Origin: Tridacna crocea
Lineage: Eukaryota > Mollusca > Bivalvia > Cardiida > Cardiidae
DNA length: 64,000 nucleotides
Direction: 5' to 3'
NCBI GenBank assembly: GCA_943736015.1
Contig: OX031057.1
Location: forward strand, 57,060,001-57,124,000
In this document: in pieces, positions 2,615-58,361 of the stretch
How positions within the stretch are numbered: the first letter of the stretch is position 1
How the letters are laid out: the number at the start of each line of letters is the position of its first letter
The notes under the pieces: generated by a model
Seen by the model: only the letters and a program-made list of their open reading frames with translations
Databases searched by the model: none
Told to the model about the DNA's origin: nothing
Position numbers and translations under genes: made by a program

Positions 2615-4427
2615 TTTTTAGCTCACCTTAGCACAAAGTGCTAAAGGTGAGCTATTGTGATCGCCCTATGTCCGGCGTCCGTCGTCTGTCAACAATTTCT
2701 TTAAACATCATCTCCTCCTAAACCACGGGGCCAATCTTCATGAAACTTGGCAGGAATGTTCTTTGGGTAATGCTCTACCAAAAGTTTTCAAAGAATTTAA
2801 TTCCACATATAACTCTGGTTGCCATGGCAACAAAAAGAAAAAAAAAAAAACAGAAATCTTTGAAAATCTTCTCTGAAACTAGAAGGCGTAGAGCTTTGAT
2901 ATTTGGTATGTAGCATCTCCTAATGGACCTCTACCAAGTTTGTTCAAATTATGCCCCAAGTGTCAAAACTGGCCTCGCCCCGGGGGATAACGAGTTTGAG
3001 CATAGGAACAAAGAATGAAAACTTTAAAAATCTTCTTCTCTGAAGTTTGACGGCGTAGAGCTTTGATATTTGGTATGTAGCATCTCCTGGTGGACCTCTA
3101 CCAAGTTTGTTCAAATCATATCCCTGGGGCCAAAATTGGCTCTAACCCAGGGGTCACAAGTTTGAGCATAGTCCTGAACAAAGAAGGAAAACTTTAAAAT
3201 TCTTCTCCTCTAAAACTTGAAGGCGTAGAGCTTTGATATTTAGTATGTGGCATCTCCTAGTGGACCTCTACCTAGTTTCTTCAAATTATGCCCCTGGTGT
3301 CAAAACTGGCCCCACCCCGGGGGTCACAAGTTTTTGCATAGGAACAAAGAAAGAAAACTTTAAAAATCTTCTCCTCTGAAATTTGAAGGCGTAGAGCTTT
3401 GATTTTTGGTGTGTGGCATCACCTAGTGGACCTCTACTAAGTTTGGACATACGATGTCCCTGGCGTCAAAACTGGCCATGCCTCGGAGGTCACAGGTTGG
3501 AACGTAAGAACAAAGAAGGAAAACTTTAAAATTCTTCTTCTCTGAAACTAGATGGCGTAGAGCTTTGATATTTGGTATGTGGCATCTCCTAGTGGACCTC
3601 TACCAAGTTTGCTTAAATCATGCCCGTGGGTTCAATATTGGCCCCGCCCCGGGGGTCACAAATTCGAACATGGGAACAAAGCAAGATAATTTTAAAATTC
3701 TTCTTCTCTAAAACTAGAAGGCATAGAGCTATGATATTAAGCATATAGCAATTCCTAGTGGATATCTACCAAGTTTGTTCATATTATGCCCTTGGGGTCA
3801 AAACTGGCCCTGCCCCGGGGGTCACAGGTTCGAACATAGCAACAAAGAAGGAAAACTTTAGAAATCTTCTCTGAAACTTGAATGTGCAGAGCTTTGATAT
3901 TTGTTATGCAGAATCTTCTAGTGGACCTCTACCAAGTTTGGTCATACGATGTCCCTGGCGTCAAAACTGGCCATGCCCCGGAAGTCACAGGTTGGAACAT
4001 AGGAACAAAGACGGAAAATTTTAAATTTCTTTTTCTCTTAAACGGGAAAGTGTAGATTTCTCATATTTGGTATGTAGCATCTTTGAGTGGACCTCTACCA
4101 AGTTTGTTCCAAGGATGCTGCTTTGGTTAAAACTGACCCAGCCCCGGGGATCACAAGTTCGAACATAGGACAAAGAAGGAAAATTTAAAATTCTTCTTTG
4201 AAACTGGAATTTGAAGAGCTTTGATATTTGATTGCCCTATGTCCGGCGTCTGTCGACCGTCAACAATTTCTTTAAACATCTTCTCCTAACCCACTGGGCC
4301 AATCTTGATGAAACTTGGCAGGGATGCTCCTTGGGTGAAGCTTTACCAAAGTTGCTCAAAGAATTGAATTTCACTCATAAGCTATAGTCTAAGGTGAGCG
4401 TTCCAGGGCCATTGGCCCTCTTGTTTT
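2615..4427 (+). mobile_element. Helentron-like element, AGCTCACC family (E1), full length
   Basis: Starts TTTTTAGCTCACC with a hairpin (GCAC-AAA-GTGC loop), followed by GTCCGGCGTCCGTCGTC and the box GGGCCAATCTTCATGAAACTT. The core is about nine tandem monomers of roughly 168 bp, each with GATATTTGGTATGTAGCATC and GTGGACCTCTACCAAGTTTG. It ends AAGGTGAGCG, hairpin GGGCCATTGGCCC, then CTCTTGTTTT. The 5' end and the subterminal 3' motif are inverse copies (AGCTCACCTTAG / CTAAGGTGAGCG). No coding capacity, so non-autonomous. The Helentron assignment is inference from the end structure. Confidence 0.8.
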
Positions 4428-4732
4428 ACTTTTTTTTTTTTTCCTTCATAGAATTATCATTTATGAATCTGAAATCACTATATACCCATTACAAAGGGAG
4501 ATAATAATTAATTCCCTTTTCTGAAAACTAACAAAAGGATCAACAAATAATTTCAAGATAAACATAAAAGGAATTTCTAGTCGGTTAGAAATGTGCAATT
4601 GTATTATATCTGTATAAATCCGAATTTATCAACTATCAAGAAATTTTATTCCATGCTTCACGTGTTCCGTGTCTACTACCTTAAAATGCAGGGGACGTGT
4701 CCTTTGATAAACACAAAATTTACTTATAGCGA

Positions 4733-4824
4733 AAAGTTTCGGCCCAGGTCAGCCTGTGCGTACTGGGCAGGCTGACCTGGGTCGAACCTTTTCCCCAGAT
4801 GCATTAGGCTCCTTTTTCACAGAG
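4733..4824 (+). repeat. Half copy of the GCCATGCTCT foldback element
   Basis: Contains the inner palindrome GGTCAGCCTG...CAGGCTGACC and the TGCATTAGGCTCCTTTTT end. The upstream arm is missing. The full version is seen at 7740-7966. Confidence 0.6.
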
Positions 4825-5490: not shown

Positions 5491-5639
5491 ATAATGTTAT
5501 TTTTCTTAATGTCGTGTCATTTAGTACTCGAGGCGGATCTACTTTAAGGTCAGAGTACATCCTGAGGATGACAATGCCGCGTGAATCAATATTCGGTCTA
5601 CCGCCGACATTTATCTATACTTTGTTTTTTCATAGATAG

Positions 5640-5937: not shown

Positions 5938-5938
5938 T

Positions 5939-6096: not shown

Positions 6097-6284
6097 TGCT
6101 AGGCTTAAAACTAGGACACATCTGCCCAAAGTACCTTTTGTTGTAGATCTCGGGCTACGTTCAATGGAATCAGTATTTGGTATGACAAAATTAATACTGA
6201 AAACGCTAGTGAAATAGAGATATGAATATCGCTCCTTGATAGAACTCCTTCTGCTTGGCAAAGCATAGCTACCTTCTTCATGTT

Positions 6285-14804: not shown

Positions 14805-17800
14805 GTACATTTTGTTTACTTTACCCTCAAAGATAATCTCTTTTCTTGTTTTAAGGCAGATTTTACTCAGTTTTAAACCCATTTCCTTATTTCATGAAAC
14901 TTTAACAATTTGTGTGTCTTAACCCTTTCCCAAACAAGCCCTGGTTTTTACGTGTCTGCAGTTAAAGTCTTTTGAAAACATTGCGGGAAAAGGAGAAATT
15001 GCTCATAACGAGCAATTTCTCCTTTTCCCACAGTGTTTTCTACCCTTGTTGAAGACTTTCTGCCATTTTCTCCAAATCAAAAATTGTCGTCTGCAAACTC
15101 TTTTCGGTTTGGAAGGGTCCAAAATTTGTCATTTGGGAAAGGGTTAACTCATTACCAAACGATAGACTTTTAGGTTTGTTCAAATTGAAAGCATTTGCAG
15201 ACGAATAAATAAAAGTGACAGAAAACTTGAAATTTGTTTTGTGAAGGGCAGAAGACATTGTGGAAAAAGGAGAATTTATGCTGATTACCAGCATTTTCTC
15301 CGTTCCCACAATGTCTTCTAAAGGCCTCTTTCTCAGGGTCGTCAAAAGTAGGGATTGTGTGGTAATGGGTTAATCCCACATGTTGCCCCTCTAGCAATGT
15401 TCCAACCAGCATTTTTAGCTCACCTTAGCACAACAAATGCTCAAGGGGAGATTTAAGGATCACCTGGTATCTGTTGTCAGTCGTGCATCATCAACAATTC
15501 TTTAAACATCAACTCCTGCTAAACTGCTGGGCCAATTTCGACCAAACTTGGCTGGAATGTTCCTTGGGAAGTCCTCTGTAGACCAGGCATCCACTAGGGC
15601 CAGGACAATACACAGATAGCATGTGGACAACAAATTTAATATTCAGCAAAGCTTCCGCATGTTCCTGATGGCTTCTTATTGTTGTCCTAGACGCTTCCTA
15701 CTGATTCGGAGCCTTCCTGATCGGCAATTTTGTCAGCGTCAAAATTTTGATCGAGAGAATTTCCTTACACTTTCTGCATCTTGTTCACTTTGTCGTCAGG
15801 ACATCCTGAGTCTTCTGCGTATATTCCCGAAAGCTTCAGCGACGCGGACAGCTTGCGGACACTAAAAGGAATCGATACAAAAGGTTCACGGAACCTTTCC
15901 TGAACGTTCAGAGAGGTCGCGGTAGGCTGTCTGAACACTGGGAAAATGTCTCATGACTTTTGTATCTAGGCAACCTACTCCCTTAACCGATATCAAAATC
16001 AGTGCTCTGTCACTTTCAGTTTGATTTTACACAGGGCGGACATGTTTCTAATCTCTCCTGCACACAATATGCTGAGACAAAAAAGAAAGAAAGAAAAAAA
16101 GTGGTCGGTGATGAAAATAAAACAGGCGACTGGAGTTCGTGGTACTTATAATTCCTGCTTGTTTAGAGCGACGTTATTTTCTCTGATACACGGCTAATTT
16201 GTCGATGTCAGTCTATGGAGCGAGAGATCCAAGTGCTCTAACATAAGATATAAATGCAACCTCTGCATTTCCGTACCGTCTCCGCCTAATATGGTGCACT
16301 GAAACTGGTTGTCCCAAACGTTTCCTGGTGTAATCCTAAACATGTCCGCGTTGTCCTGGAACGATCCGCTTTCACGTCTGAGCATTCTGTACCATTCCGG
16401 ATTGTTTACGCGGAGAATCCTAAGTATGCTAGCAAGAAGTCCATGGACAGTCTGGAGATAAACACATTTAAGTACTGAATCTATATTTTCTCACAGGAAG
16501 GTATGCTGAAATGGATTTATTTTTACAGGGCGCTTCAGGATGGTTAATTGATCTATATTGTCTGAATAGAGTAGAACTGATCTGAGTGACCCATACCCAC
16601 TTCTCTCTTTCTCTTTCTCTCTCTCTCTCTTTCTCTCTCTCAGACTTAAACTGCTATTGAAACCATTGATACAAAGTAAGAGATTGCTCATTTTAAGCAG
16701 TTTCCATTTTTACCTCAATATCTTTTTCCATGCTCTTTTTTTTCATGGTGTTCTTTTATCATTTCTTCAGATTTTAAGTGTTTTCCAGGCAGGCAGTTTT
16801 GGAAGACTCACTGTAATCAGAATGGGGGAATTTAGACTAAGTAAAATTGAAAGTATTTGCAAGGTGGCAAAATAAAAGTGGCCCAAATAATCAGTGTTCC
16901 CACTAACTTTTTATTTCAAGGGTACACACATATCCCCTACTAGGCTGATAATCTGAGGATAGGATTTCATATTAAAGGGTATGACATTGGTGGTTCCCAA
17001 CTAGAGGTAAAGCAATCCAAATTGATGATTGGTAGCAAAGAAGTCTGCTGTATTTAGATATCTATGTAAATACACTGTTTAAAACCATTTGAAAGGTGAA
17101 AAAGCAGTCTGAAGTGACTGATCGGACAATGTCAAGGAGTCATTTTGTTGTGTCATGTGTTTCCATGTTTTTTGCATCAATCACTTTTTCACATCTGTTA
17201 ATTTTTGGACATAAATTTGTTATAAGGATTACAAATAACTTCAAAACCTGCCATTTCATGCAAGATTAGCAGATAATTGTCTTTATGGCCATGTATTCTC
17301 TTACGCAAGTTATCGTGTGTAACCAATATTTATTACATGAATTTTATTTGTGTAACATGATTTATGCAATAATATGTGTGAATGGGAACTCTGGTAATGG
17401 AATATTTCTCTTGAAGGAGGAAAACATTGTGGGGAAAGCAAAAAATGGTGGTTAACCAGCATTTTCTCTCTTTTCCATGGTATTTTCTATAGCTGTCTTC
17501 CTCAGGATTAAATGAAACATGGGATTGTTTAGTAATGGATGGAGAGTGATGTTTGGCCTTAAAATATCCTGTCTGTGTTACGTTTTTCAGGCATTTGGAT
17601 ATATCCGAAGGAGATGACTCTGATAAGACCTTACCTGTTAAATATCCGGACCCTACCAAACAGCTAGAGAAGTTATTACACAGTATGCCACACCTCACAT
17701 CGCTGGATATTTCTGGCACAAACCTTGCAGGATACCTACCTGTACAAAAAGTGTCCCACAAATTGGATGCCATTGGACAATCAGAAGATGGGTGGGTGTG

Positions 17801-20800
17801 ATTGAATCTTTTGCCTTAAAATTCTGTTCTTAAACAACCTTAAAGGTGGCCCTTCAGAGTTTGGGACGAAAATTTACAAAAAATGCAAAAAAAAAAATCA
17901 TCCTTATATTCCCAAAGCCTTTTAATTTTCATTCATAAAACCCCAGTAGTCGAAAATTGTCCTATAACACGAGAAATTAAAGATTTACTACAGCCCAGGT
18001 TGACACCAATGGGAGACACATTCTATTTTTAGATGATCAGTTCACTCATTTACAAACAGGAATACACGGACAAAGTTTCAAACATAGCATCCGAAGAATA
18101 CATTATGGAAAATAATTATTACATGTTCGTTATGAAATGGAATTTAAGCATTATGAGTCATGTGCCAGTCACCTGACATTCCCAAAATGCTTTATTGATT
18201 TTTGGCGCAAAATCTAAAAATACCTTAAGAGGCTACGTAGCCTTTTAAGGGAACACCATCAAAAAAAATTTTTTTTGTAATTTTATGAATCTTAATTATT
18301 GATGATTTGTATTATTTTTTCATATGAATTTCAGTGATATATATATGTTTTAATTTGGGGAGATGTCAAAAATTCTGAATACCCACCTTTAAGAATGAAG
18401 GCTACTAAAAACATAATGGAAAAAGGAAAAAATGCTGACATCAGCAGTTTCATCTTAATCTGAAAAGGTTTTAATTTTCTCCTTGTACAAATCATTTTTT
18501 ATCCCCCGCCAAAGGTGGAGGGATTTAGTTTTACTGTTGTCCGTCCGACAGTCCATGTGTCTGTCTGTGTGTCCATCTGGGTTTCATCCTCGTCTCCATC
18601 TGTGTACAAAATACTAGTGATTTTCAATCACCAACTCCTCCTACAGTTTTCCTTCAATTATATTGAAACTTTGCACATATATTGATCATATATTGAAGGT
18701 TTGCAAACGCAATTTTCAAGTTTCAACTTTTCCTGGTTGAGGAATTATCTGCCCATGACATTGACACTTTTACATGTATTTTCTTAACATCTTCTGTCTA
18801 TGAAATACTAGTACCGGTAATTTTGTGTCACCACAGTTTTCCTGCAATTGTGTTTGGACGCACTTTTCAATTCATTTCCAACAATATTTCGTTAACTTTC
18901 TGAATAATTCATCATTTGGAACATATTCCTATAGTGATGTACACATGCTCTTTGTTAAACAAAGCCAATGATTATGTTTTTGTAAAGACTTGTGGCAAAT
19001 ATTCTGTTCCTTTTGATTATTTTATTACAGTATAAGCTCTAATTTGAAAAATCATGAATTAAAAATTTTGTCAATTACATATATCATATTTTATGAAACG
19101 GGGGCTTATGCATCCATTTTAAACTCTTTCACATGGTATTTTATATATAATTATGAAGATAGAGACCATTATCTGTTCCTTACCAACATTTTTAATCAAA
19201 TGGGTACATTCCTCGGAAAAAAATTGGTCCATTACAGCTTTTGCAGGGGTATTAAGTCACATCGCATGACAATTTCTAGTTAATTCTATAATGTTATTTT
19301 ATTGCCTGTATCCCCTCATTGAATGACCAACCAATTCCTGTAGAAAACAGTAATGACCTCCACCTTCAGGGGCTGTTCTCACATGGACATCTAAGAAATA
19401 CATACATGTAGTTGAATAGAACTGCATATATACATGTATGTAAAGCTTCTTAACTCTTTACCAAACAACAGAATTTTCGACAGCTCCAGATGGAAAACAT
19501 TCACAGAAAACAAAATTTTATGATGAAATCTATCTTTAACCCTTTACCCCATAAGGCATTTCTATGGTATCTCTAAATGACCCTAAATAACAGCAAGGAT
19601 GAAGCTGTTTCTTATGTGTATATGGCACCTTTGGATAGCATAGAAAACATTGTGACAAAAGGTGAAATTGCTCGTCACGAGCAATTTCACCTTTTGTCAC
19701 AATGTTTTCTAAAGGCTCCTACAAGCAATGCGTCAAAATGAGTATCTGTGGAGTAAAAGGTTAAAAGGGAAGAAAGCATCGTGGGAAAAAGAGAGAATGC
19801 ATCTTCTTGTTTTAGCAGAGTGTTCTAAAAAATCCTTTTTCTTAGGTTCTTGAAAATGCCTAACTGTGCCAGATCATACTTGAAAAATATTTTTCGTCTT
19901 GAAGGCCTAGTGGTATACCAGGAACAAATGGTAAACAGTTTCAGTTTCTTGGACTGTTCAACTGTGCTGATGAAGCTGCTCACAGGAAAAACTTACCTGC
20001 TATTAAGGTAAGTAGATTATAAACAGCTGTATTCTCTATTTGTTTACAGTAGACTTAGACCTTTTGCACTTCACCATACAATAAAACACATATGTCCAAG
20101 TTGAAAGTATTCAAAGACAACAACAAATTCAGTTGTATTTGAATGACATGATTTGCAGTTGGAAGGATTGCATACATCATCGGAAAAGTAGAAATGCTTG
20201 TTACTGGCATTTTCACCTTTTCCCACAATGTTTTCAACTTGGGATTGTGTAGTAAAGAGTGAAGAATTATTCCATCAATGATATCAAAAAATCTTTTCTC
20301 TTAAGGTAATTGACTTGAAAATAAGAACTACTAGTATTCTGTGAGGGTACTGTTGTCCAATAATGCTGTAGAAGGACTAAGTCCCTCCTGTGTTCATTCT
20401 GATTGGACATTGCTCAAATTAACTCATTACCGCACAATCTGGACTTTTGACGACCCTGAGAAAAAAACCTTTAGAAAATATTGTGGGAAAAGGAGAAAAT
20501 GCTGGTCACCAGGATTTTCTCCTTTTCCCACAATGTTTTCTACTCTTCACAAAACAAATCTCAAAATTTCAGTTGCGCTTATTTTGTCATCTGCAAATGC
20601 TTTCAATTTGGACAAACCTAAAATAATATTGTTTGGTAAAGAGTTAAGTCATGTAATGTCCCAGAATCTTTGTATTTGTAGAAAACAGCCTTTTAACCAT
20701 TCAAGCGCTGAAACCAACTTAACTTGTTTTTGTGGACAGTGTAGATCAAGATCAAACTGCACTGAACGTACAGTCTGATCTTGGATCTACACTGTCCACT

Positions 20801-40261: not shown

Positions 40262-42081
40262 TTTTTAGCTCACCTTAGTACAAAGTGCTAAAGGTGAGCT
40301 ATTGTAATCGCCCATGTCGGGCATCCGGCGTCAGTTGTCCGTCAACAATTTTTTTTAAACATCTTCTTCTCCTAAACCACTGGGCCAATCTTCGTGAAAC
40401 TTGGCTGAAATGTTTCTTGGGTGAAGCTCTACCAAAATTGTTCAAAGAATTTAATTCCACCCATAACTCTGGTTGCCATGGCAACAAAAAGAAAAAAGAA
40501 TGAAATCTTTGAAAATCTTCTTCTCTGAAACTAGAAGGTGAAGAGCTTTGATATTTGGTATGTAGAATCTCCTAATGGACCTCTACCAAGTTTGTTCAAA
40601 TTTTGCCCATAGGGTTAAAATTGGCCCCACCCCGGGGGATAACAAGTTTGAGCATAGGAACAGAGAAGGAAAACTTTGAAAATCTTCTTCTCTGAAACTT
40701 GAAGGCGTAGAGCTTTGATATTTGGTATGTAGCATCTCCTAGTGGACCGCTACCAAGTTTGTTCAAATTATGCTCCTGGGGTCAAAATTTGTCCCAGCCC
40801 AGGGGTCACAAATTTGAGCATATGAACAAAGAAGGAAAACTTTAAAAATCTTCTTCTCTGAAACTTTTAGGCATAGATCTTTGATATTTAGTATGTGGCA
40901 TGTACTAGTGGACCTCTATCAAGTTGGTTCAAATTATGCCCCTGGGGTCAAAACTGGCCCCATCCCGGGGTTTACAAGTTTGAGCATAGGAACAAAGAAG
41001 GAAAACTTTAAAAATCTTCTCTTCTGAAATTTGAAGGTGTAGAGATTTGATATTTTGTATGTGGCATCTCCTAGTGGACCTCTACCAAGTTTGTTCAAAT
41101 TATGCCCCTGGAGTCAAAACTAGCCCCAGCCCAGGGGTCACAAATTTGAGCATAGGAACAAAGAAGGAAAACTTTAAAATTCTTTTCCTCAGAAACTAGA
41201 AAATGTAGAGCTTTTGATATTTGGTATGTGGCATCTCCTAGTGGACTTCTACCAAGTTCGTTTTAATCATGCCCCTGGGGTCAAAACTAGCCCGCCCCGG
41301 GGGTCAAAAGTTCGAACATAGGAACAAGAAAGAAAATTTCAAAATTCTTCTTCTCTAAAACTAGAAGGCATAGAGCTATGATATTTGGCATGTAGCAATT
41401 CCTAGTGGACCTCTAACAAGTTTCTTCATATTATGCCCTTGGGGTCAAAACTGGCCCTGCCCTGGGGGGGTCAAAGGTTTGAACATAGCAACAAAGAATG
41501 AAAACTTTAATAATCTTCTTCTCTGAAACTTGAAGGTGCAGAGCTTTGATATTTGGTATGCAGAATCTTCTAGTGGACCTCTACCAAGTTTGGTCATATG
41601 ATGTGTCCCTGGCGTCAAAACTGGCCATGCCCTAGAGGTCACAGATTGGAACATAGGAACAACAAGGGAAAATTTTAAATTTCTTTTTCTCTTAAACGGG
41701 AAAGTGTAGAGCTTTGATATTTGGTATGTAGCATCTTTGAGTGGACCTCTACCTAGGTTGTTCCAAGGATGCTGCTTTGGTTAAAACTGACCCAGCCCGT
41801 GGGACCACAAGTTCGAACATAGTGCAAAGAAGGAAAATTTGAAATTCTTCTTTGAAACTGGAAGGTGTAGAGCTTTGATATTTGATTGCCCTATGTCCGG
41901 CGTCTGTCACCCGTCAACAATTTCTTTCAATATCTTCTCCTAACCCACTGGGCCAATCTTGATGAAACTTGGCAGGGATGTTCCTTGGGTGAAGCTTTAC
42001 CAAAGTTGTTCAAAGAATTGAGTTTCACCCATAAGCTATAGTCTAAGGTGAGCGTTCCAGGGCCAATGGCCCTCTTGTTTA
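40262..42081 (+). mobile_element. Helentron-like AGCTCACC family, full length (E7)
   Basis: TTTTTAGCTCACCTTAGTAC start with AAA-loop hairpin, GGGCCAATCTTCGTGAAACTT box, about nine core monomers of 168 bp, CTAAGGTGAGCG and hairpin GGGCCAATGGCCC, then CTCTTGTTT. Inverted counterpart at 54474-56128. Confidence 0.85.
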
Positions 42082-42190: not shown

Positions 42191-43853
42191 TTTTTAGCTC
42201 CACTGGCCGAAGGCCAGCGGGCTTATGTCATGGCCCATTGTCCGTCGTGCGTCTGTCCGTCCGTCCGTGCGTTAACTTTTTCTTTAAACATCTTCTTTTC
42301 TGAAACTACCCATCCAATTTGGATGAAACTTCACAGAAATGATCCTGCCATGGTCCTCTTCAGAATTTCTTGAAAGAATTTAATTCCTTCAAAAACTCTG
42401 GTTGCCATGGCAACAAAACTGAAAAATTTTGAAAATCTTTGAAAATCTTCTTGTCTGAAACCGTAAGGCCTAGAGCTACCAAATTTGGCATGTAGCTTTA
42501 TCTAGTGGACCTCTACCAAGTTTCTTCAAATTATAGCCCTGGGGTCAAAATTGGCCCCGCCCTGGGGGTCACAAGTTTTACATGGGCTTATTTAGGGAGA
42601 ACTTTAAAACTCCTCTTCTACCTAGGCATAGGGCCTAGGGCTACCACATTTGGGATGTTGTTTTATTTAGTGGACCTCTACCAAGAGTGTCTAAATTATA
42701 GCCCTGGGGTCAAAATTGGCCCAGCCCCGGGGGTAACAAGTTTTACATGGGCTTATATAGGGAGAACTTCAAAATTCTTCTTCCACCTAGCCAGAGGGCC
42801 TAGGGCTACCAAATTTGGCATGTAGCTTTATCTAGTGGACCTCTACCAAGGGTTTCCAACTTATAGCCCAGGGGTCAAATTTGGCCCCGCCCCGGGGGGT
42901 AACAAATTTTACATGGGCTTATATAGGGAAAACTTTCAAAATCTTGTTGCACCTAGCTATAAGGACTAGGGCTATCAAATTTTGCATGTAGCTTTATCTA
43001 GGGGGTCTCTACCAAGGGTGCCCAAAAGTATAGCCCTGGGGTCGAATTTAGCCCCCGTCACAGGGGATCACAAGTTTTGCATTGGCTTATATAGGGAAAC
43101 TTTAATAATCTACTTGTACATAGCCATAAGGCCTAGGGCTACCAAATTTTGCATGTAGCTTTATCTAATGGGCTTCTACCAAGAGGGCCAAAATTTTAAC
43201 TTTGGGGGTCAAGTTTGACCCCATCCCAAGGGTCACAAGTTTTACATTGGCTTTATAAACCTGTCTCATGGGTCACATATTTTACAGGGCCTTTTATTGA
43301 GCAAACTTGTTGTACAGGGCTTTTTATTGGGCAAGATTCAAAAATCTTCGTGTCTATAACCACACATTCTAGTTTCATATTGTAGGTCTGGGGTAAAAAT
43401 TGGCTCCATCCAGGGATCACAAGTTTAACATGGGCCTCAAGATATAGTCACTTTAATTTCTACATTAATCAAGGGAAATAACTCTTTATGAAAGATAAAG
43501 TTTGGTACTATTTACCTCCCTTGATTATCAAACTGCATTGATACATAATTTATGCTAGACATTAAATTTTTTGATATAAAATATTCTGTTTTCAAGTGTT
43601 ATTCATTTTTTTTATGCTAATAGTTATGCTTACATGAGGTGAATAATAAATTCAGAGTAAGGTTTCTATCATTCAGCTTATTTTTCCAAGGATTTTACCT
43701 TTCATGCTAATGAATTAACCTGCTTGTACTGCCTGACAGCATTCATTGTTTTTGAAGGCCCTCTTTTTCATGGTCATGAACACTTCAATTTGTGTGGTAA
43801 AGGGTTAAAAAGCCAGTGGAGCGATACAGGGCCATCATGGCCCTCTTGTTTTT
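42191..43853 (+). mobile_element. Helentron-like AGCTCCACTGG family, full length (E8)
   Basis: Poly-T, AGCTCCACTGGCC-GAA-GGCCAG hairpin, TGTCCGTCCGTCCGTGC tract, CCATCCAATTTGGATGAAACTTC box, and about six core monomers with GGCCTAGGGCTACCAAATTTG. A MITE right-half remnant (TTTGTGTGGTAAAGGG) sits at 43740-43806. Ends GCCAGTGGAGCGATA, hairpin GGGCCAT-CATGGCCC, CTCTTGTTTTT. Its empty site is kept at about 54355. Confidence 0.88.
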
Positions 43854-46177: not shown

Positions 46178-49100
46178 ATCCCCCGCTGTAGGCGGAGGGA
46201 TATAGTTTTAGCGTTGTCCGTCCGTCTGTCTGTGTGTCCGTCCGTCCGTCCGTGTGTACAAACTGGCAAATATCTCCAATACCATTGGACGGAATTTCGT
46301 GAAACTTTAAACACATGTACAATGACCCATTCCCCCCAGACTCTTTTTAGCACACCTGAGCACGAAGTGCTCATGGTGAGCTTTTGTGATCACTCAATGT
46401 CCGTCGTCCGTCGTGCGTCGTCCGTCGTCCACAATTTCTTTAAACATCTTCTCCTCCTAAACCACTGGGCCAATCTTGATGAAACTTGGCAGGGATGTTC
46501 CTTGGGTGAAGCTCTACCAAAGTTGTTCAAGAGATTGAATTCCACCCATAATTCTGGTTGCCATGGCAACCGAAAGGAAAAAAATAGCAAAATCTTTGAA
46601 AATCTTCTTCTCTGAAACTAGAAGGTGCAGGGCTTTGATATTTGGTATGTAGAATCTCCTAGTGGACCTCTACCAAAATTGTTCATATGATGTCCCTGGG
46701 GTCAAAACTGGCCCCGCCCCGGGAGTCACAAGTTTGAAACATAGGAATAAACAAGGAAAACTTTAAAAATCTTCTTCTCTGAAACTAGAAGGTGCAGGGC
46801 TTTGATATTTGGTATGTAGCATCTCCTAGTGGACCTCTACCAAGATTGTTCATATGATGTCCCTGGGGTCAAAACTGGCCCCGCCCCGGGGGTCACAAGT
46901 TTGAAACATAGGAATAAAGAGGGAAAACTTTAAAACTCTTCTGCTCTGAAACTAGAAGGTGCAGGGCTTTGATATTTGGTATGTAACATTTTCTAGTGGA
47001 CCTCTACCAAGATTGTTCATATGATGTCCCTGGGGTCAAAACTGGCCCCGCCCCGGGGGTCACAATTCTGAAACATAGGAACAAAGAAGAAAAACTTTGA
47101 AAATCTTCTTCTTTGAAACTAGAAGGCGTAGAGCTTTGATATTTGGTGTGTAGCATCTCCTAGTGGACCTCTACCAAGATTGTTCATATGATATCCCTGG
47201 GGTCAAAACTGGCCCCACTCCGGGGGTCACAATTTTGAAACATAGGAACACAGAAGGAAAACTTTGAAATTCTTCTTCTCTGAAACTAGAATATGTAGAA
47301 CTTTGATATTTGGTATGTAGCATCTCCTAGTGGACTTCTACCAAGATTCTTCATATGATGTCCCTGGGGTCAAAAATGCCCCCCCCCCCCCCCCGGGGGT
47401 CACAATTTTGAAATATAGGAACAAAGAAGGAAAACTTTAAAATTCTTCTTCTCTGAAACTAGAAGGTGCAGGGCTTTGATATTTGGTATGTAGCATCTCC
47501 TAGTGGACCTCTACCAAGATTGTTCATATGATGTCCCTGGGGTCAAAACTGGCCCCGCCCCGGGGGTCACAAGTTTGAAACATAGGAATAAAGAGGGAAA
47601 ACTTTAAAACTCTTCTGCTCTGAAACTAGAAGGTGCAGGGCTTTGATATTTGGTATGTAACATTTTCTAGTGGACCTCTACCAAGATTGTTCATATGATG
47701 TCCCTGGGGTCAAAACTGGCCCCGCCCCGGGGGTCACAATTCTGAAACATAGGAACAAAGAAGGAAAACTTTGAAAATCTTCTTCTTTGAAACTAGAAGG
47801 CGTAGAGCTTTGATATTTGGTGTGTAGCATCTCCTAGTGGACCTCTACCAAGATTGTTCATATGATATCCCTGGGGTCAAAACTGGCCCCACTCCGGGGG
47901 TCACAATTTTGAAACATAGGAACACAGAAGGAAAACTTTGAAATTCTTCTTCTCTGAAACTAGAATATGTAGAACTTTGATATTTGGTATGTAGCATCTC
48001 CTAGTGGACTTCTACCAAGATTGTTCATATGATGTCCCTGGGGTCAAAAATGCCCCCCCCCCCCGGGGGTCACAATTTTGAAATATAGGAACAAAGAAGG
48101 AAAAATTTAAAATTCTTCTTCTCTGAAACTAGAAGGTGCAGGGCTTTGATATTTGGTATGTAGCATCTCCTAGTGGACCTCTACCAAGATTGTTCATATG
48201 ATATCCCTGGGGTCAAAACTGGCCCCACTCCGGGGGTCACAATTTTGAAACATAGGAACACAGAAGGAAAACTTTGAAATTCTTCTTCTCTGAAACTAGA
48301 ATATGTAGAACTTTGATATTTGGTATGTAGCATCTCCTAGTGGACTTCTACCAAGATTGTTCATATGATGTCCCTGGGGTCAAAAATGCCCTCCACCCGG
48401 GGGTCACAATTTTGAAATATAGGAACAAAGAAGGAAAACTTTAAAATTCTTCTTCTCTGAAACTAGAAGGTGCAGGGCTTTGATATTTGGTATGTAGCAT
48501 CTCCTAGTGGACCTCTACCAAGATTGTTCATATGATGTCCCTGGGGTCAAAACTGGCCCCACCCTGGGGGTCACAAGTTTAATACATAGAAATAAAGAAG
48601 GAAAAATTGAAAATTTTTCTTGTCTGAAACTAGATTATGTAGAGCTTTTATATTTGGTAAATAGGATCTCCTAGTGGACTTCTACAATGTCTGTTCATAT
48701 GATGTCCCTGGGGTCAAAACTTGCCCTGCCCCATGGGTCACAAGTTTGAAACATAGGAACAAAGAAGGAAAATGTCAATATTATTCTTCTCTGAAACTAG
48801 AAGGCGTAGAGCTTTGATATTTGGTATGTAGCATCTTTTAGTGGACTTCTACAAAGTTTCTTCATACGATGCCCCTGGGGTCTAAACTTGCCCTGCCCAG
48901 GGTTCACAAGTTCGAAACATATGAACAAAGAAGGAAAACTTTAAAATTCTACTTCTCTGAAACTAGAAGGTATAGAGCTTTGATATTTTTTAAGTTTCAT
49001 CTCCTAGTGTACCTCTAGCAAGTTTTTCTTTTTCTTAGGATGCCCCTGGGGTCAAAATTGGCCCTGCCCAGGGGTCACAAGTTTGATTTTACAGCTTAGT

Positions 49101-50215
49101 ACTCAGGTGAGCGATATAGGACCATCATGGTCCTCTTGTTTTTGTTTTTTTTGATTCAATGCAAAATGGCCGACTGAGAGTGATTTTGAATTTCACTTTA
49201 GTTACACTTAAGTACCCTTTTGATATTTGTTGTCTTGTCTTCAAAACTATACAGGGAAAAAAGTTTCACCTACATTGACCGTGCAACACCACAGTTATTT
49301 GCCCTTTTTTTGTAATAAGGTGTCATGGAAAAAGAGGGTTTCATGTTATATTTCACTCCATTTATTGTGAAGGCAACTCCTTCCACATTTCGTCACAGAG
49401 TTGAATAGAATTTTGACAGAATATTTCTTGTCATGTGACCTATTGCATATTGTCAACATTTTGCAATTTGTAGCTGCGTCATTAAAAAAGGGGGCTTCAT
49501 GTTTTATTTCATTTTATTTCTTGTGAATGCAACTCGTCCCATATTTCTTGACAGAATTGAAAAAAAAAACCTCACAGAATGTTTCTCATCATCTGACCTA
49601 TCGCATATTCTCAAGGGTTTGCAATTTGTAGCTGCGTCATGAAAAAAGGGGGCTTCATGTTTTATTTCATTCTATTTTTCGTGAAGGCAACTCCTCCCAC
49701 ATTTCTTTGCAGATTTGAATGGAATTTTCACATTATGTGACCTAACACAAAGCCTCCCACATTTCTTGGCAGATTTGGATGGAATTTTCACATGATCATG
49801 TGACCTACAGCATATTGTCAAGGTTTTCGGATTTGTAGCTGTATCATGGAATAAGGGGGCTTCATGTTATAATTTCATTTTTCACCAGAATCTCTTCAAT
49901 TACTCGACATATCTGAGATTTTCACAGATCATGTGACCTAGCACATATTGTCAGGGTTTTGCAATTTATCACTTTATCATAGAAAAAGGGGACTTCATGT
50001 CAAATTTAATTTTTTATCAGTGTATCTCCAACTTTTGCACATATTTTCATAGAACTTTATATTTTTATTGCTTGATCAAAGCCAGTTACCAATGAGTCAA
50101 TTGTGCATTCATCTCTCCAAAAAGGCCACATGTACATGCAAAACACAATACCTCTTATAAGTTTGTATCAAAAAAAGGTCTTTTTCGGTGGGGGATATCA
50201 TTTCAACGAAATTCC
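46178..50215 (+). mobile_element. Helentron-like ATCCCCCGC family element, interrupted by E10 (E9)
   Basis: 5' part 46178-46343 (ATCCCCCGCTGTAGGCGGAGGGAT hairpin, GTCCGTCCGTCTGTC, GGACGGAATTTCGTGAAACTT box). 3' part 49143-50215: core of about five worn units with TTTGCAATTTGTAGCTGCGTC and GGGGGCTTCATGTTTTATTTC, then GGTGGGGGATATCA, hairpin TTTC-AAC-GAAA, TTCC and poly-T. Its own length is about 1.2 kb. The right arm of the inverted duplication lacks it (empty site about 59170-59190). Confidence 0.75.
46345..49142 (+). mobile_element. Helentron-like AGCTCACC family, 15 core monomers, nested (E10)
   Basis: TTTTTAGCACACCTGAGCAC-GAA-GTGCTC start, CCGTCGTGCGTCGTCCGTCG tract, GGGCCAATCTTGATGAAACTT box, 15 monomers of about 168 bp, then CAGGTGAGCGATATA, hairpin GGACCAT-CATGGTCC, CTCTTGTTTTT. 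Inserted into E9. Monomers 3-6 are repeated as a 670-bp block. Confidence 0.88.
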
Positions 50216-51306
50216 TTTTTTTCTTTAAATCATGACGGAAATAGGAGAAAATATTGCAAACAAGCATTGTCTCCTTTTTGTGCAGTGTCTCCTTTTTGTA
50301 CAAGGTTTTCTTGCCTTTAAATACAAGTTCAAACATTTTAAAGCCACATTTAGATTTTTGTCTATAAATTCTTTCAATTTTTAGACGTGTGTGTGTGTTA
50401 ACTTTAATTTTAAACATTTTTTCTTCAACTACCCATCCAATTTTGGTGAAACTTCACAGGAATAATCCTGCCATGGTCCTCTTTGGAATTTTTTGAAAGA
50501 ATTTGATTCCTTCAAAAACTGTGGCTGCCATGGCAACAAAACCAAAAAGTATTTAAAATCATTGAAACGATAAGGCCTAGGGATATCAAATTTTGCATGT
50601 AGCTTTATCTAGTGGACCTTTACCAAGTTCCTTCAAGTCGAGCCTTGGGGTCAAAATTGGTCCCAATCTGGGGGTCGCAAGTTTGATATGGACTTATATG
50701 GGGAAAACTTTAAAATCCTGTTGGTACCAAGCCATAGGGCTACCAAATTAGCATGTATCTTTATCAGGTTCGCATCGACCAAGAGTGCACAAATTATAGC
50801 CCTGGAGTCAAATTTGGTCAGGCTCCTGGAGTCACAAGTTTAATATGGGCTTATATGGGAAAAACTTTAAAAATCTTCTGTTACCTAGCCATAAGGCTTA
50901 CAGCTACCACATTTGGGATGTAGCTTTATCTTGTTGGTGTCTACAAAGGATGCCCAAATTATAGCTCTGGGGTCAAATGGCCCCGTCCTAGCAGGTAACA
51001 AGTTTTACATTGGCTTATATTGGGAAAACTTTAAAAATGTACTTCTACCTAGCCATAATGCCTAGGACTACAAAATTTTCCATGTAGCTTTATTCAGTGG
51101 GCCTGTACTAAGAGGACCAAAATGATAGTATTGACATCAAGTTTGTCTCGACACTAGGGGTACTTTCTTGTAGAATTTAATTTCTAAAAAAGAAATTGTA
51201 TGTCTTCAAGTTTGAAAGAATTGACAAAGTATTGTAATTGTGGCTTGTATTGATATTACTTATAAGCAAGTAGAGTGATAGAGGGCCACCATGGCCCTCT
51301 TGTTTT
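50216..51306 (+). mobile_element. MITE remnant and worn AGCTCCACTGG-family element (E12)
   Basis: 50216-50400 is matched inverted at 58990-59170. From about 50400 the CTACCCATCCAATTTTGGTGAAACTTC box and core monomers follow, ending in AGTAGAGTGATAGAGGGCCA CCATGGCCCTCTTGTTTT. The 5' hairpin is missing. Confidence 0.7.
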
Positions 51307-52080
51307 TTAGCTTACCTAAGCAAGAAGTGCTCATGGTGAGCTTTTGTGATCACCCAATGTCTGCCGTGCGGTGTACGTCGTCCGTCGTCCACAATTTCTT
51401 TAAACATCTTCTCCTAAACAACAGGGCCAATCTTGATGAAACTTGGCAGGGATGTTTCTTTGGTGAAGCTGTACCATAGTTGTTCAAGAGATTGAATTCC
51501 AGCCATAACTCTGGTTTCCATGGCAACCAAAAGTGAAAAAATAGCAAAATCTTTGAAAATCTTCTCTGAAACTAGAAGGGGTAGAATTTTGATATTTGGT
51601 ATGTAGCATCTCCTAGTAGACCTCTAGCAAGATTGTTCATATGATGCCCCTGGGGTCAAACCTGGCCCCACCCTGGGGGTCACAAGTTTGAAACATAGGA
51701 ACAAAGAAGGAAAACTTTAAAAATCTTCTTCTTTGAAAGTAGATGGTTCAGAGCTTTGATATTTGGTATGTAGCATCTCCTAGTGGACCTCTAGCTCTAG
51801 CAAGATTGTTCATATGATGCCACTGGAGTTAAAACTGGCCCCTCCCCTGGGGGGTCACAAGTTTGAAACACAGGAACAAAGAAGGAAAACTTTAAAAATC
51901 TTCTCCTCTGAAACTAGATGGTTCAGAGTTTTAATATTTGGTATGTAGCATCTCTAGCAAGATTGTTCATATGATGCCCCTAGGGTCAAACCTGGCCCCA
52001 CCCAGGGGGTCACAAGTTTGAAACATAGGAACAAAAAAAGAAAACTTTAAAATTCTTCTTCTCTGAAAGAAGAAGGTACA
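51303..52080 (+). mobile_element. Helentron-like AGCTCACC family, 3'-truncated (E13)
   Basis: Begins in the same T-run that ends E12: TTTTTTAGCTTACCTAAGCA A-GAA-GTGCTC, then the GGGCCAATCTTGATGAAACTT box and about three monomers. Cut off by the MITE at 52081. Confidence 0.8.
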
Positions 52081-52922: not shown

Positions 52923-53816
52923 ATGTAAATATTGGGAAGAAATTCATCCGACATATTGTCAAACAATCCAATGGATTTGTTGTATGATTGCCCTTTGCAC
53001 CATCTATTTTAATGGGTTCTAATAAGCCCATATGAAACAAGAGGACCATGATAGTCCTATATCGGTAACCTGAGTACTAACCAGTAAAGTTCTAAAATGA
53101 AGATAAATACCAAATATCAAAGTTCAAGTCTAAATAATTCTGACAGGGTATGTAACTGTGCAAAAAGCATTTTCTTCTTTTCCGAAAATGCTTTCACAAC
53201 CATTATTATTCAGGATCATTGAAAGTCAGGATTGTATGGTATGGGATTGAATTAACTTGGAAGGCCAGGCATTAATTTCCTGGTCAAAAGGGTGATCGAA
53301 TGACAAGATTAAAACATCATTCGCTCATTGGTAAGTTACAAATGAGACTTGTCTCAGTAACTTTTTATCAAATGTCAGAGGATGTTGGCTGAGACAGTAA
53401 TCAAGCCAGCGCAAACTGGGAACCCTAGACTGACAGCTTACAAAATTACTAACTGATCTATCGGGGCTCAACAAGTCCAGTTTGTGAAAGGTAACCCCTT
53501 TTTCTGTGACACATCTTACAGAAGAAAATTGTATCAAAAGACTATCCTAAAGAAATATGTTTGAAGTTCCATAAATGCCAAGGACTTAAGAAGATATCCG
53601 CCAAGGTGGATGGATGGGCAAACTGACTGTAATTGGTCCATAATGAAATTATACATTTAGTCCTTTTTTTTGATAACATATCGTTTTATGAAATAAAATC
53701 AAATAACTATTGTCTGTCGCTTAACAAGATGAAGTTTAATTACATTTTGTGCTGTAGTGAAAGAGATATTGGTCCACAGTGAAGATATTTTTCAATGACA
53801 TGACATTTACTGAAAA
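52923..53816. other. Gene-free, small element fragments
   Basis: 53041-53130 is a minus-strand 3' end of an AGCTCACC-family element (CAAGAGGACCATGATAGTCC). 53150-53245 is a MITE half (AAAAAGCATTTTCTTCTTTTC, GATTGTATGGTATGGG). Beyond 53260 I recognise nothing. Confidence 0.45.
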
Positions 53817-54237
53817 CAAGAGGGCCATTGGCCCTGGAACGCTCACCTTAGACTATGGCTTATGAGTGAAATTCAATTCTTTGAACAACTTTGGTAAAGC
53901 TTCACCCAAGGAACATCCCTGCCAAGTTTCATCAAGATTGGCCCAGTGGGTTAGGAGAAGAGGATGTTGAAAGAAATTGTTGACGGGCGACAGACGCCGG
54001 ACAAAGGGCAGTATCAAAGCTCTCAACTTCCACTTTCAAAGAAGAATTTCAAATTTTCCTTCTTTGTCCTATGTTCGAACTTGTGGTCCCCGGGGCTGGG
54101 TCAGTTTTAACCAAAGCAGCATCCTTGGAACAAACGTGGTAGAGGTCCACTCAAAGATGCTACATACCAAATATCAAAGCTCTACACCTTCCCGTTTAAG
54201 AGAAAAAGAAATATAAAATTTTCCTTCTTTGTTCCTA
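53817..54237 (-). mobile_element. Helentron-like AGCTCACC family, 3' fragment (E15)
   Basis: Minus strand 3' end: CTAAGGTGAGCGTTCCAGGG, hairpin GGGCCAATGGCCC, CTCTTGTTTT at 53817, with the last two monomers. Stops at 54237 where sequence shared with 43854-43972 begins. Confidence 0.75.
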
Positions 54238-54473
54238 TTAAGACTGATGCAAAAAAGAAAGTGTTTCTGGAGCAAAATGATCATGCTGTTATTCAACTGC
54301 ATATTGCACCTTTTATCAAAACACTTTTCAATTTGCTTTGTTTATCAGTGTTTACAAAAAAAATTTGGTTCACAACAAAACACCTACATAGGCCCCATTA
54401 ACTCTTTCTGTGCCAAAACAGTACTACAGAATTCTGAAAAAATGTCGGATCAGACGGATTTATAACACTTCCT
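54238..54473 (-). repeat. Inverted copy of 42082-42190 plus 43854-43972, without E8
   Basis: Complement reads GGAAGTGTTATAAATCCGTC ... GTTGTGAACCAAATTTTTTT TGTAAACACTGATAAAC: the two flanks of E8 joined directly. This is an empty E8 site. Confidence 0.92.
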
Positions 54474-56128
54474 AAACAATAGGGCCATTGGCCCTGGAAC
54501 GCTCACCTTAGACTATGGCTTATGAGTGAAATTCAATTCTTTGAACAACTTTTGTAAAGCTTCACCCAAGGAACATCCCTGCCAAGTTTCATCAAGATTG
54601 GCCCAGTGGGTTAGGAGAAGATGTTGAAAGAAATTGTTGACGGGCGACAGACGCAATCAAATATCAAAGCTCTACACCTTCCAGTTTCAAAGAAGAATTT
54701 CAAATTTTCCTTCTTTGTCCTATGTTCGAACTTGTGGTCCCATGGGCTGGGTCAATTTTAACCAAAGCAGCATCCTTGGAACAACCTAGGTAGAGGTCCA
54801 CTCAAAGATGCTACATACCAAATATAAAAGCTCTACACTTTCCCGTTTAAGAGAAAAAGAAATTTAAAATTTTCCTTTGTTGTTCCTATGTTCCAATCTG
54901 TGACCTCCGGGGCATGGCCAGTTTTGACGCCAGGGACACATCATATGACCAAACTTCATAGAGGTCCACTAGAAGATTCTGCATACCAAATATCAAAGCT
55001 CTGCACCTTCAAGTTTCAGAGAAGACTTCTAAAGTTTTCCTTCTTTGTTGCAATGTTCGAACCTTTGACCCCCCGGGGCAGGGCCAAGGGCATAATATGA
55101 AGAAACTTGGTAGAGGTCCACTAGGAATTGCTACATGCCAAATATCATAGCTCTATGCCTTCTAGTTTTGGAGAAGAAGAATTTTAAAACTTTCTTTCTT
55201 TGTTCCTATGTTCCAAAGCTCTACGCCATCTAGTTTCAGAGGAGAAGAATTTTAAAGTTTTCCTTCTTTTTTCCTATGCTCAAACTAGTGACCCCCGGGG
55301 TGGGGCCAGTTTTGACCCCAGGGACATCATTTGAATAAACTTGGTAGAGGTCCTTTAGGAGATGCAACAGGCAAAATATCAAAGCTCTACGCTTTCTATT
55401 TTCTGAGGAAAATAGGTTTTAAGTTTTCCTATTTTCTTTCTATGCTCAAATTTGTGACCCCCCGGGTGGGGCCAGTTTTGTCCCCAGGGGCATAATTTGA
55501 ATAAACTTGGTAGAGGTCCACTAGGAGATGCCACATACTAAATATCAAAGCTCTACGCCTTCAAGTTTCAGAGGAGAAGATTTTTAAAGTTTTCCTTCTT
55601 TGTTCCTATGCTCAAACTTGTGACCCTGGTGTGGGGCCAGTTTTGACCCCAGGGATATAATTTGAACAAACTTGGTAGAGGTCCACTAGGAGATGCTCTA
55701 CGCCTTCAAGTTTCAGAGGAGAAGATTTTTAAAGTTTTCCTTCTTTGTTCTTATGCTCAAACTCGTTATCCCCCGGGGCGGGGCCAGTTTTGACCCTAGG
55801 GGCATAATTTGAAACATCTTGGTAGAGGTCCATTAGGAGATGCTACATACCAAATATCAAAGCTCTACGCCTTCTAGTTCCAGAGAAGAAGATTTTCAAA
55901 TAGTTCATTTTTTTTTTATTGTTGCCAGAGTTATGGGTTGAATTAAATTCTTTGAACAATTTTGGTAGAGCTTCACCAAAGGAATATTCCTACCAGGTTT
56001 CATGAAGATTGGCCTAGTGGTTTAGGAGGAGAAGATGTTTAAAGAAATTGTTGACGGACGACGGACGCCGGACATAGGGCGATCACTATAGCTCACCTTT
56101 AGCACTTTGTGCTAAGGTTAGCTAAAAA
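54474..56128 (-). mobile_element. Helentron-like AGCTCACC family, full length, inverted (E16)
   Basis: Minus-strand copy of E7: 5' end TTTTTAGCTAACCTTAGCAC-AAA-GTGC at 56128, 3' end at 54474 where the terminal CTCTTG is changed to CTATTG. Core monomer count is close to E7 with some monomers rearranged. Confidence 0.82.
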
Positions 56129-56204
56129 GATAAAATATTGTTATTGTCAGACTATCATAAGGAACACATGTATGAAGTTTCCATCTTCATTCAAAGCAGA
56201 TTAA

Positions 56205-58361
56205 TTTAAAAGTTTTCCTTCTGTGTTCAAACGTGTGACCATCAGGGCGGGGCCAGTTTGGACCCCCGGGATCATTGTATCGTATTTGGTAGAGGTCCAT
56301 TAGAAGATGCTACATATGAAATATCAAAGCTCTATGTCTTCCAATTTCAGAGAAAATTTTTTCAAAGTTTTCCTTCTTTGTTCCTATGTTCCGAACTTGT
56401 GACCCCCAGGGATTGGCGTATTTGGACCCCAGGGACATCATTTGAATGAACTTGGTAGAGGTCCACTAGGAGATGCTACAAACCAAAAATCAAAGTTCTA
56501 CTCCTTCTTGTTTCCGAGAAGAAGATTTTTTAAAGTTTTTCCTCTTTGTTCCTATGTTTCAAACTTGTGACCCGCGGGGCGGTGCCTGGTTTGACCCCAT
56601 GGGCATCATATTAACAACTTTTTTAATAGTTTTCCTTCTTTGTTCCTATGTTTCGAACTTGTGACCCCCAGGGCTTGGACTGTTTGGACCCTAGGGACAT
56701 CACTTGAACAAACTTGGTAGAGATCCACTAAGAGATGCTACATACCAAATATGAAAGCTATGCACCTGCTAGTTTTAGAAAAGAAGAATTTTAAAGTTTT
56801 CCTTTTTTGTTCCTATGTTTCAAACTTGTGACCCCCGGGCCAGGGCCACTTTTGACCCCAGGGAAATCGTATGAACAATCTTGGAAGAGGTCCACTAGGA
56901 GATGCTACATACTAGTACCAAATATCAAAGCTCTTCATCCCCTAGTTTCAGAGAAGAAGTTTTTTAAAGTTTTCCTTCTTTGTTCCTATGTTTCATACTT
57001 GTGACCCCTGAATCGGAGCCAGTTCTGACCCTAGGGGCATCATATGAACAATCTTGCTAGAGGTCCACTAGGAGATGCTACATAGCAAATATCAAAGCTC
57101 TCAACCTCCTAGTCTCTGAGAAGAAGAATTTTAAAGTTTTCATTTTTTTGTTCCTATGTTTTGAACTTGTGGCCCCCGGGGCGAGGCCAGTTTTGACCCC
57201 AATGGCATTATATGAACAATCTTGGTAGAGGTCCACTAGAGGTCCAATAGGAGATGCTACATACCAAATTTCAAAGCTCTGCACCTTCTAATTTCAGAGA
57301 AGAATATTTTCAAAATGTTCCTTCCTTGTTCCTATGTTTCGAACTTGTGACCCCGGGACGGGGCATCATATGTACAATCTTGGTAGAGGTCCACTAGGAG
57401 ATGCTACATACTAAATATCAAAGCTCCGCGGCTTATAGTTTCAGAGAAGAAAATTTTTAAAGTTTTCCTTCTTTTTTCCTATGTTTTAAACCTGTGACCC
57501 CCGGAACAGAGTCAGTTTTGATCCCAGTGGCATCATATGAAAAATCTTGGTAGAGATCCACTCGGAGATGATAAATATTAAATATGAAAGCTCTGCACCT
57601 TCTAGTTTTAGAGAAGAAGAATTTTAAAGTTTTCTTTTTTTGTTCCTATGTTTCAAACTTGTGACTCCCGGTGCGGGGCCAGGTTTGTCCCTAGGGGCAT
57701 CAGATGAACAATCTTGCTAGAGGTACCCTAGGAGATGCTACATACCAAATATCAAAGCTCTGAACCATCTAGTGTCAGAGAAGAAGATTTTTAAAGATTT
57801 TCTTCTTTGTTCCTGTGTTTCAAACTTGTGACCCCCGGGGCGGGACCAGTTTTGACCCCAGGGGCATCATATGAACAATGTTGCTAGAAGTCTACTAGGA
57901 GATGCTACATACCAAATATCAAAGCTCTGAACCATGTAGTTTCGGAGAAGATTTTTAAAGTTTCCCTTCTTTGCTCCTGTTTCAAACTTGTGACCCCCAG
58001 GGCGGGGCCAGGTTTGACCCCAGGGGCATCATATGATCAATCTTGCTAATTGTTCACTAGGAGATGCTACATACCAAATATCAAAGTTCTACGCCTTCTA
58101 GTTTCAGAGAAGAAGATTTTCAAAGACTTTTGCTATTTTTGTTTTTCACTTTTGGTTGCCATGGCAACCAGAGTTATGGCTGGATTCAATCTCTTGAATA
58201 TCTATGGTAGAGCTTTACCAAAGGAACATCCCTGCCAAGTTTCATCAAGATTGGCCCAGTGGTTTAGGAGGAGAAGATGTTTAAAGAAATTGTGGACGGA
58301 CGCCGCACATAGGGCGATCACAATAACTCACCTTTAGTACTTTGCGCTAAGGTGAGCTAAA
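56205..58361 (-). mobile_element. Helentron-like AGCTCACC family, 3'-truncated, inverted (E17)
   Basis: 5' end at 58361 (TTTAGCTCACCTTAGCGCAAAGTAC), GGGCCAATCTTGATGAAACTT box near 58255, about 11 monomers downwards, and no 3' hairpin. It interrupts the inverted copy of E12 near 58370. Confidence 0.78.

Follow-up and report, generated by a model that had tools for sequence, protein, structure and literature searches.

Hairpin-ended non-coding elements with satellite-like cores in the bivalve Tridacna crocea: probable non-autonomous Helentrons

A 64,000-nucleotide stretch of the genome of the bivalve Tridacna crocea (hereafter the window; contig C2, OX031057.1, positions 57060001-57124000) holds about a dozen non-coding elements that have hairpin-shaped ends in common and bodies that differ, which raises the question of what these elements are and whether one enzyme could mobilise all of them. 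An earlier note on this DNA had described five families with one hidden architecture and had assigned them to a single Helentron machinery that reads hairpin shape over sequence. The searches reported here covered the 1.05-Gb genome (1,048,827,098 bases in 31 contigs); candidate counts come from first-look searches in which the best 40 matches were scored per query, and 78 genomic loci (290 kb, labelled with L-numbers) were fetched for work on edges, hairpins and paralogues. The elements are very probably HINEs, that is, non-autonomous Helentrons with satellite-like tandem cores. The Helentron identity already proposed in the note is well supported, since the anatomy agrees point for point with that of HINEs, insertions lie in T-runs and intact Rep-PIF1-endonuclease frames are present in the genome.

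Anatomy, grouping and genomic edges

The elements (labelled E1 to E11 below) run from oligo-T and a 5' hairpin through a GTCC/GTCY tract, a TGAAACTT-like box and a satellite-like core to an inverted copy of the 5' end, a 3' hairpin and CTCTTG. The 5' and 3' ends listed in the earlier note were present, the quoted 5' ends being located at 2615/2620, 15412, 18501, 21932, 30235, 40262, 42196 and 46178 (+) and at 58358 (-), with further 5' ends at 46349 and 51309 (+) and 56123 (-). GTCCGTC occurred 20 times in the window against 1.3 expected and TGAAACTT, which is present in the units of the satellite-like cores too, 33 times against 7.6; CTCTTGTTT with at most one mismatch (52 against 33.4 expected) was less striking alone. 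Relative to 4000 background placements outside the elements, a GTC[CTG] tract (at least 4) was found in 8 of the 13 5' modules versus 0.2% of placements, and a box within 1 mismatch in 12 of 13 versus 15%. A perfect hairpin abutted CTCTTG at 8 of 48 window sites, whereas 100 dinucleotide shuffles gave a mean of 0.17 and a largest value of 2, and none of 59 other permutations of the hexamer exceeded 2. The fetched loci held 17 distinct sites of this kind among 393 occurrences of CTCTTG (permuted hexamers: mean 0.32, maximum 2), 13 of the 17 clustering with the query family, so that this sample is not independent. Given the excesses of GTCCGTC, TGAAACTT and hairpin-CTCTTG, the listed ends are not explained by chance.

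Similarity of the 5' modules divided the elements into four unrelated groups – group A with E1, E2, E7, E8, E10 and the 5' ends 46349, 51309 and 56123, group B with E3 and E9 (81% over 79 bases), group C with E4, and group D with E5 and an old copy at 34981-35267. Between groups, 5' ends match only in the GTC tract, core-like stretches aside. The five independent families of the note were thus reduced to four, E8 being a diverged relative of E1 (5' modules approximately 73% identical over 169 bases). A C-GAA-G or AAA triloop, which the note had described as frequent in the 5' hairpin, was seen at 8 of 13 5' ends (seven by DNA fold, E5 by inspection) and not at the rest; according to the note, C-GAA-G loops have unusual stability in DNA. 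Scanning for the 5'-end shape (T-run, simple hairpin, tract) returned four sites, from groups B, C and D (shuffle mean 0.47, largest 2, n=30), and missed the group A 5' ends.

As in HINEs, the subterminal inverted repeat (subTIR) of the 5' end recurs inverted near the 3' end (eight window elements with both ends), a palindrome or hairpin lies just behind the 3' subTIR (E4 being the exception in the fold), and the left module with its GTCY-type microsatellite is accompanied by a satellite-like core. The architecture described in the note is real, except that group B lacks the CTCTTG end.

First-look candidate copies numbered 11684 for E7, 997 for the E4 3' end, 1509 for the E5 3' end, 624 for the E3 5' end and 2044 for the E9 3' end. 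In the E4 family CTCTTG was followed by T in 25 of 25 loci (the window's own being one), and 19 5' edges stood behind TT-T/A-TT. The E7 family showed CTCTTG/T (the slash marking the edge) in all 16 recognised 3' ends among 20 loci, in a search whose string itself contained CTCTTG and allowed up to 6 mismatches, and 21 of its 5' ends stood behind a T-run, nearly as in the E4 family (some loci containing a second element). Outside the window, 33 of 39 E5 matches stopped one base past CTCTTG, three stopped two bases past it and three at the query end (best 40 of 1509 scored). For the 111-base E4 3' end, 40 full matches including the window's own were 99-100% identical (best 40 of 997 candidates), and the E4 family is young. 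Genome-wide edges were thus recovered for the E4, E7 and E5 families, and CTCTTG/T is the edge common to groups A, C and D.

The note had given CTCTTGTTT as the end of every family. A constant TTT at the 3' terminus was rejected, because edges and paralogues put the T's at least partly in the target. Paralogues with joined flanks (window and fetched loci searched) were found for 8 of 34 elements, at approximately 71-90% identity and with T-rich junctions. More T's stood at the filled site than in the paralogue in L022, L029 and L040, the clearest pairs; L002, L023 and L032 were ambiguous, and about half of the eight were clear. These T-rich junctions and fuller T-runs indicate that the reported TTTTT and TTT ends belong at least partly to the target. 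No target duplication beyond a varying number of T's was seen in these paralogues, several pairs of which are ambiguous, so that oligo-T insertion without other target duplication, a further HINE feature, was found in this part of the sample (8 of 34, about half clear).

Group B ends differently, with a hairpin, TCC and a T-run. Of its 3' copies outside the window, 38 of 39 stopped 2-20 bases behind TCC and one 35 bases behind it (best of 2044 candidates), an edge blurred by the T-run behind TCC. Six copies came up in a search by exact pattern (control 0); those outside the window, five in number, carry GGCGGGGGAT, which is the inverse of ATCCCCCGCC in E3. On this inverse relation and the order in the window, the group B 5' and 3' modules are presumed to belong together. 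The limit of E9 at 49141 given in the note was abandoned, since that 3' end is supplied by a nested group A element (46349-49138) and E9 ends near 50215. With the pairing of its 5' and 3' modules judged from the subTIR and the order in the window, we infer that E9 is a group B element interrupted by a group A insertion.

Hairpin pairing, Helentron proteins and mobilisation

The 3' stems differ in sequence among elements, yet they pair. The pattern RGNCCATCATGGNCYTCTTGT had 9652 copies in the genome (backwards control 0); in 100 listed rows its variable third pair was G-C in 68, A-T in 30 and mispaired in 2, and its outer pair was A.C in 5 and G.T in 3. The E4 3' hairpin contains one mismatch, and the simple hairpin is not its minimum-energy fold. 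At the other end, positions 2-12 of the 5' arm fit the 3' subTIR with 0-1 edits in 7 of 8 window elements and with 3 in E9, and the edits to the local partner exceeded those to the 3' subTIR in 8 of 8, a count inflated in E5 and E4, where positions 2-12 reach into the loop. The distal fit was better in 17 of 18 E4 copies and equal in one, and among E7 copies (n=14) it was better in eight, equal in four and worse in two. An extra base was present in the local arm of 27 of 27 group A 5' ends (A 20, T 4, C 3; the C cases by eye), a set consisting of many copies of one family and obtained with a search string that excludes E8, where a mismatch and a deletion stand in place of the extra base. One extra base was also seen by inspection in E3, E4, E5 and E9. 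The extra base sits at the junction of the lower and upper stem.

These pairings invite the proposal, which we consider unlikely, that the 5' end acts as a switch during rolling-circle transfer. The bulged local hairpin would serve as the mark of the origin, and the 3' subTIR, on becoming single-stranded, would displace the local arm, bridging the two ends and licensing termination behind the 3' hairpin. If this were true, selection would preserve a perfect distal arm and an imperfect local one regardless of sequence. A partial or interrupted local repeat was already noted for DINE-1 in the part of PMC2374699 consulted; a literature search for a Helentron with a bulge found no paper, and one for the string CTCTTGTTT gave, among the matches listed, titles that look unrelated.

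The PF14214 profile gave 32 genome matches (30 loci at 27 distinct places). Two open reading frames (ORFs) whose neighbourhoods were assembled from stretches that overlap, namely ORF A (2599 amino acids, C1) and ORF B (2266 amino acids, C6), carry HxH, Walker A and C-terminal SDH motifs, and Pfam recognised Helitron_like_N, PIF1 and Exo_endo_phos in both (both C-termini tested), which amounts to the HUH Rep with GSPHxH, PIF1 helicase and C-terminal endonuclease of an autonomous Helentron. The signature [VI]EFQ[QN][RK]GSPHxH, the Helentron form according to a passage of PMC4067079, was found at 17 of the 30 loci (15 places), and the GLPH form at none of the 30. At least four Rep lineages (L046/L052, L047-type, L048/L049 and L070) share approximately 30-55% identity in the Rep region, with three of the 17 signature loci (only 2-3 residues kept) standing outside the identity table and the lower values (L055, L058) possibly including frame breaks. 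Eight loci (L057, L059, L060, L062, L063, L065, L066 and L069) have PF14214 without GSPHxH, mostly in long open frames, and may represent another kind of element; in each of the pairs L057/L060 and L062/L063 the two frames are equally long and lie on different chromosomes.

ORF A is followed, 3.6 kb downstream of its stop, by TACTCAGGTGAGCGATATAGGACCATCATGGTCCTCTTG, a 3' end of the type of E9b (the element nested in E9), and the region downstream matches the E9b end at 98% over 53 bases and window positions 53138-53035 at 84% over 104 bases. Parts of the long ORF A 3' region are joined to the same end elsewhere in the genome, so that this end belongs with the region. ORF A as a demonstrated partner was rejected, with only a 3' end and no 5' subTIR found upstream, and on these matches it may be taken as a lead to the partner, not as proof. 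Upstream of ORF A, two degenerate 5' ends of other HINE-like families, of TATCCCCCC and ATGCCC types with GTC tracts, were observed (L080:60-330, L076:90-170).

Several observations weigh against the elements being HINEs moved by these Helentrons. The group B copy in the window has no CTCTTG end; the signature is missing from 13 of the 30 Rep loci, which include fragments; and the 100 RGNCCATCATGGNCYTCTTGT rows, those listed first for contig C1, are no random sample, their common ancestry leaving few independent changes. No matching 5' subTIR was found in approximately 2.5 kb upstream of ORF A, and the E9b-type 3' form has 3687 exact copies in the genome, so that its neighbourhood with ORF A may be due to chance. 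By eye, none of the other 39 scored places for the ORF A 3' region had a listed PF14214 locus 10 kb or less away. The autonomous copy that the note had called for, with a Rep-helicase frame and the same two ends, was sought, and none with both ends of any HINE family was found.

Under the HINE reading, the Helentron Rep would nick at the 5' T/A junction, the PIF1 helicase would unwind the strand, and the 3' hairpin followed by CTCTTG (in group B, hairpin-TCC) would mark the end of rolling-circle transfer, the single strand then being inserted in an oligo-T target that the C-terminal endonuclease may have nicked. The families are probably served by the same enzyme class; the common edge and the paired 3' hairpins of differing sequence in groups A, C and D are as expected for one class. 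Perhaps several Helentron lineages are involved, each with its own subTIR and all with a common hairpin-plus-end layout.

A narrower version, close to the claim of the note, holds that a single Helentron enzyme moves all groups by hairpin shape plus CTCTTG and tolerates any subTIR. The abutting 3' hairpin whose stem pairs despite differing sequence, the CTCTTG/T edge and the 5' hairpin are indeed common to groups A, C and D, their flanks being dissimilar beyond the GTC tract. However, group B ends in hairpin-TCC, the coexisting Rep lineages could each be the partner of one group, and the hexamer could descend from a common ancestor whose flanks diverged fast, so that a single enzyme, unproven as the note framed it, seems rather improbable. 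That the elements are Helitron2-type rolling-circle transposons instead of endonuclease-bearing Helentrons is very unlikely: the asymmetrical inverted repeats and palindromes on both ends that a passage of PMC4067079 gives for Helitron2 fit, and non-coding copies cannot separate the two, but Rep genes that carry the signature have the G-S-P of Helentrons, and an endonuclease domain is present in both C-termini tested. The idea that hairpins and boxes are by-products of randomly inserted satellite arrays, which could draw on the satellite-like cores and on TGAAACTT in their units, is hardly credible in view of edges that are sharp and shared across many genomic sites and of the joined-flank paralogues. 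Canonical Helitrons (5' TC, 3' CTRR, insertion at A/T, GLPHxH Rep) were discarded, the ends here being A.. and CTCTTG or TCC in T-runs.

Individual elements and their surroundings

Elements lie on the (+) strand unless stated otherwise. The group A HINE E1 (2615..4423) begins with a T-run (2615-2619) and a 5' hairpin from 2620, contains a BIV160-like core (2867-4230) and closes with subTIR CTAAGGTGAGC (11/11), a hairpin and CTCTTG to 4423; E7 (40262..42077) is a group A HINE close to it. In both, a stretch of the left module that includes tract and box is duplicated at approximately 83% identity just before the 3' end, at 4225-4380 and 41879-42034. Only the 5' module is present of the group A element E2 (15412..15577), with 75% identity to E1 across 166 bases, and E8 (42196..43848) is a diverged group A HINE with hairpin GGCC-GAA-GGCC and subTIR GCCAGTGGAGC. 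The group B 5' module E3 (18496..18745) has a ATCCCCCGCC hairpin and a GTC tract, with no recognisable 3' end within the window. The group C HINE E4 (21932..23487) combines a GAA-loop 5' hairpin and nine 156-bp repeats (22012-23418) with subTIR GACGGGCGTAT, the once-mismatched hairpin and CTCTTG. In group D, the HINE E5 (30235..31452) has a ATGCTCCCCGAA hairpin, a diverged core, subTIR TTCGGGGAGCAT, hairpin CCGTC-TCT-GACGG and CTCTTG, and the old short copy E6 (34981..35267; 5' edge by inspection) has a decayed 5' hairpin, hairpin CCGT-CTACA-ACGG and CTCTTG.

The interrupted group B HINE E9 (46178..50215) ends with the presumed 3' subTIR GGTGGGGGAT (50187-50196), ATC, hairpin ATTTC-AAC-GAAAT, TCC and a T-run (50216-50222). 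The group A HINE nested in it, E9b (46349..49138), has a GAA-loop 5' hairpin, approximately 15 units of a 167-bp repeat, and a 3' end of hairpin GGACCATCATGGTCC and CTCTTG. An E8-like element without an intact 5' end (50393..51302) ends with GGGCCACCATGGCCCTCTTG, and directly behind its CTCTTG, head to tail in a T-run, begins the group A element E11 (51309..52077), whose own 3' end was not found; a flank similar to this 51302/51309 insertion was seen at L012. On the (-) strand, one or more group A elements (53817..56123) have the 5' end 56123 and the 3' ends 54477 (CTATTG) and 53817 (CTCTTG), the pairing of ends being presumed, and a separate 3' module (53038..53138) ends with GGACTATCATGGTCCTCTTG and has its match in the 3' end that lies behind the autonomous ORF on C1. 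E10 (56124..58358, -) has a group A 5' end at 58358 and a BIV160-like core; its limits in the earlier note are not secure, because both 58358 and 56123 fall within a nested region that holds three different 3' ends (54477, 53817 and 53038).

The surroundings code for animal-type proteins, three of six frames tested matching Pfam glycosyltransferase family 11, a zer-1-like domain and FR47-like. A tandem array with an 81-base unit (1606-2559) lies beside and partly overlaps the glycosyltransferase family 11 frame (604-1710, -), and at 9884-10555 a 227-base unit is repeated three times in tandem at 98%. Another inverted element (5613-9108) has TTGATCTACA-type ends and a long hairpin TCAGACTGCACGTTCTGTGCAGTCGGA. 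A palindromic repeat of approximately 230 bases (CTGGTAACCAGCATTTTCTCCTTTTCCCAC...) is abundant in the window (for example at 4825-5052, 20419-20648, 26077-26305 and 37769-37997) and around the Helentron genes, and it serves both as an insertion target of the elements and as an empty-site reference. An Rfam search and a scan of viral contigs with the E8-type 3' end gave no matches.

Relation to known elements and significance

The kind of element is already known, and the note arrived at it from the letters alone with good accuracy; the anatomy has been published for HINEs, with DINE-1 in flies and Pearl and Cg_HINE in bivalves; the statements below rest on passages of the cited papers. Cg_HINE of Crassostrea gigas (PMC7492417) resembles the present elements in a 5' subTIR with local inverse, a GTCY/GTCC/GTCK microsatellite, a satellite-like core, a palindrome after the 3' subTIR, oligo-T insertion and several sequence-unrelated groups; it differs in that those passages make no mention of a common CTCTTG terminus or a bulged local arm. 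Pearl and the BIV160/Cg170 satellites of bivalves (PMC5139131, PMC7492417) likewise have core repeats of approximately 160 bp, and by eye the group A core resembles the BIV160 primer TTTGACCCCAGGGGAATAATT printed in PMC5139131, whereas species and exact families differ. Shared with DINE-1, HINEs and Helentrons (PMC4067079, PMC2374699) are subTIRs, a partial local inverted repeat, a GTCY repeat, a variable core, a TT target, a 3' stem-loop with differing stems and a Rep-PIF1-endonuclease protein; the Drosophila subTIRs are of other sequences (ATACCC and TATACC types). Hairpins kept by compensatory change, as possible rolling-circle terminators, were published for DINE-1 in 2008 (PMC2374699). 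Not met in the published passages, and thus apparently new, are the CTCTTG edge in three unrelated groups, the group B exception and the imperfect-local, better-distal pairing.

HINEs have been discussed as carriers of satellite DNA, and the authors of PMC7492417 could not relate autonomous elements to the Cg_HINEs, mobilisation of bivalve HINEs being an open point in the consulted part of that paper. A young HINE family beside intact Helentron genes in one genome could make the partners identifiable and transposition testable. The common edge, together with the imperfect-local and better-distal pairing, yields concrete predictions on what the Helentron Rep recognises.

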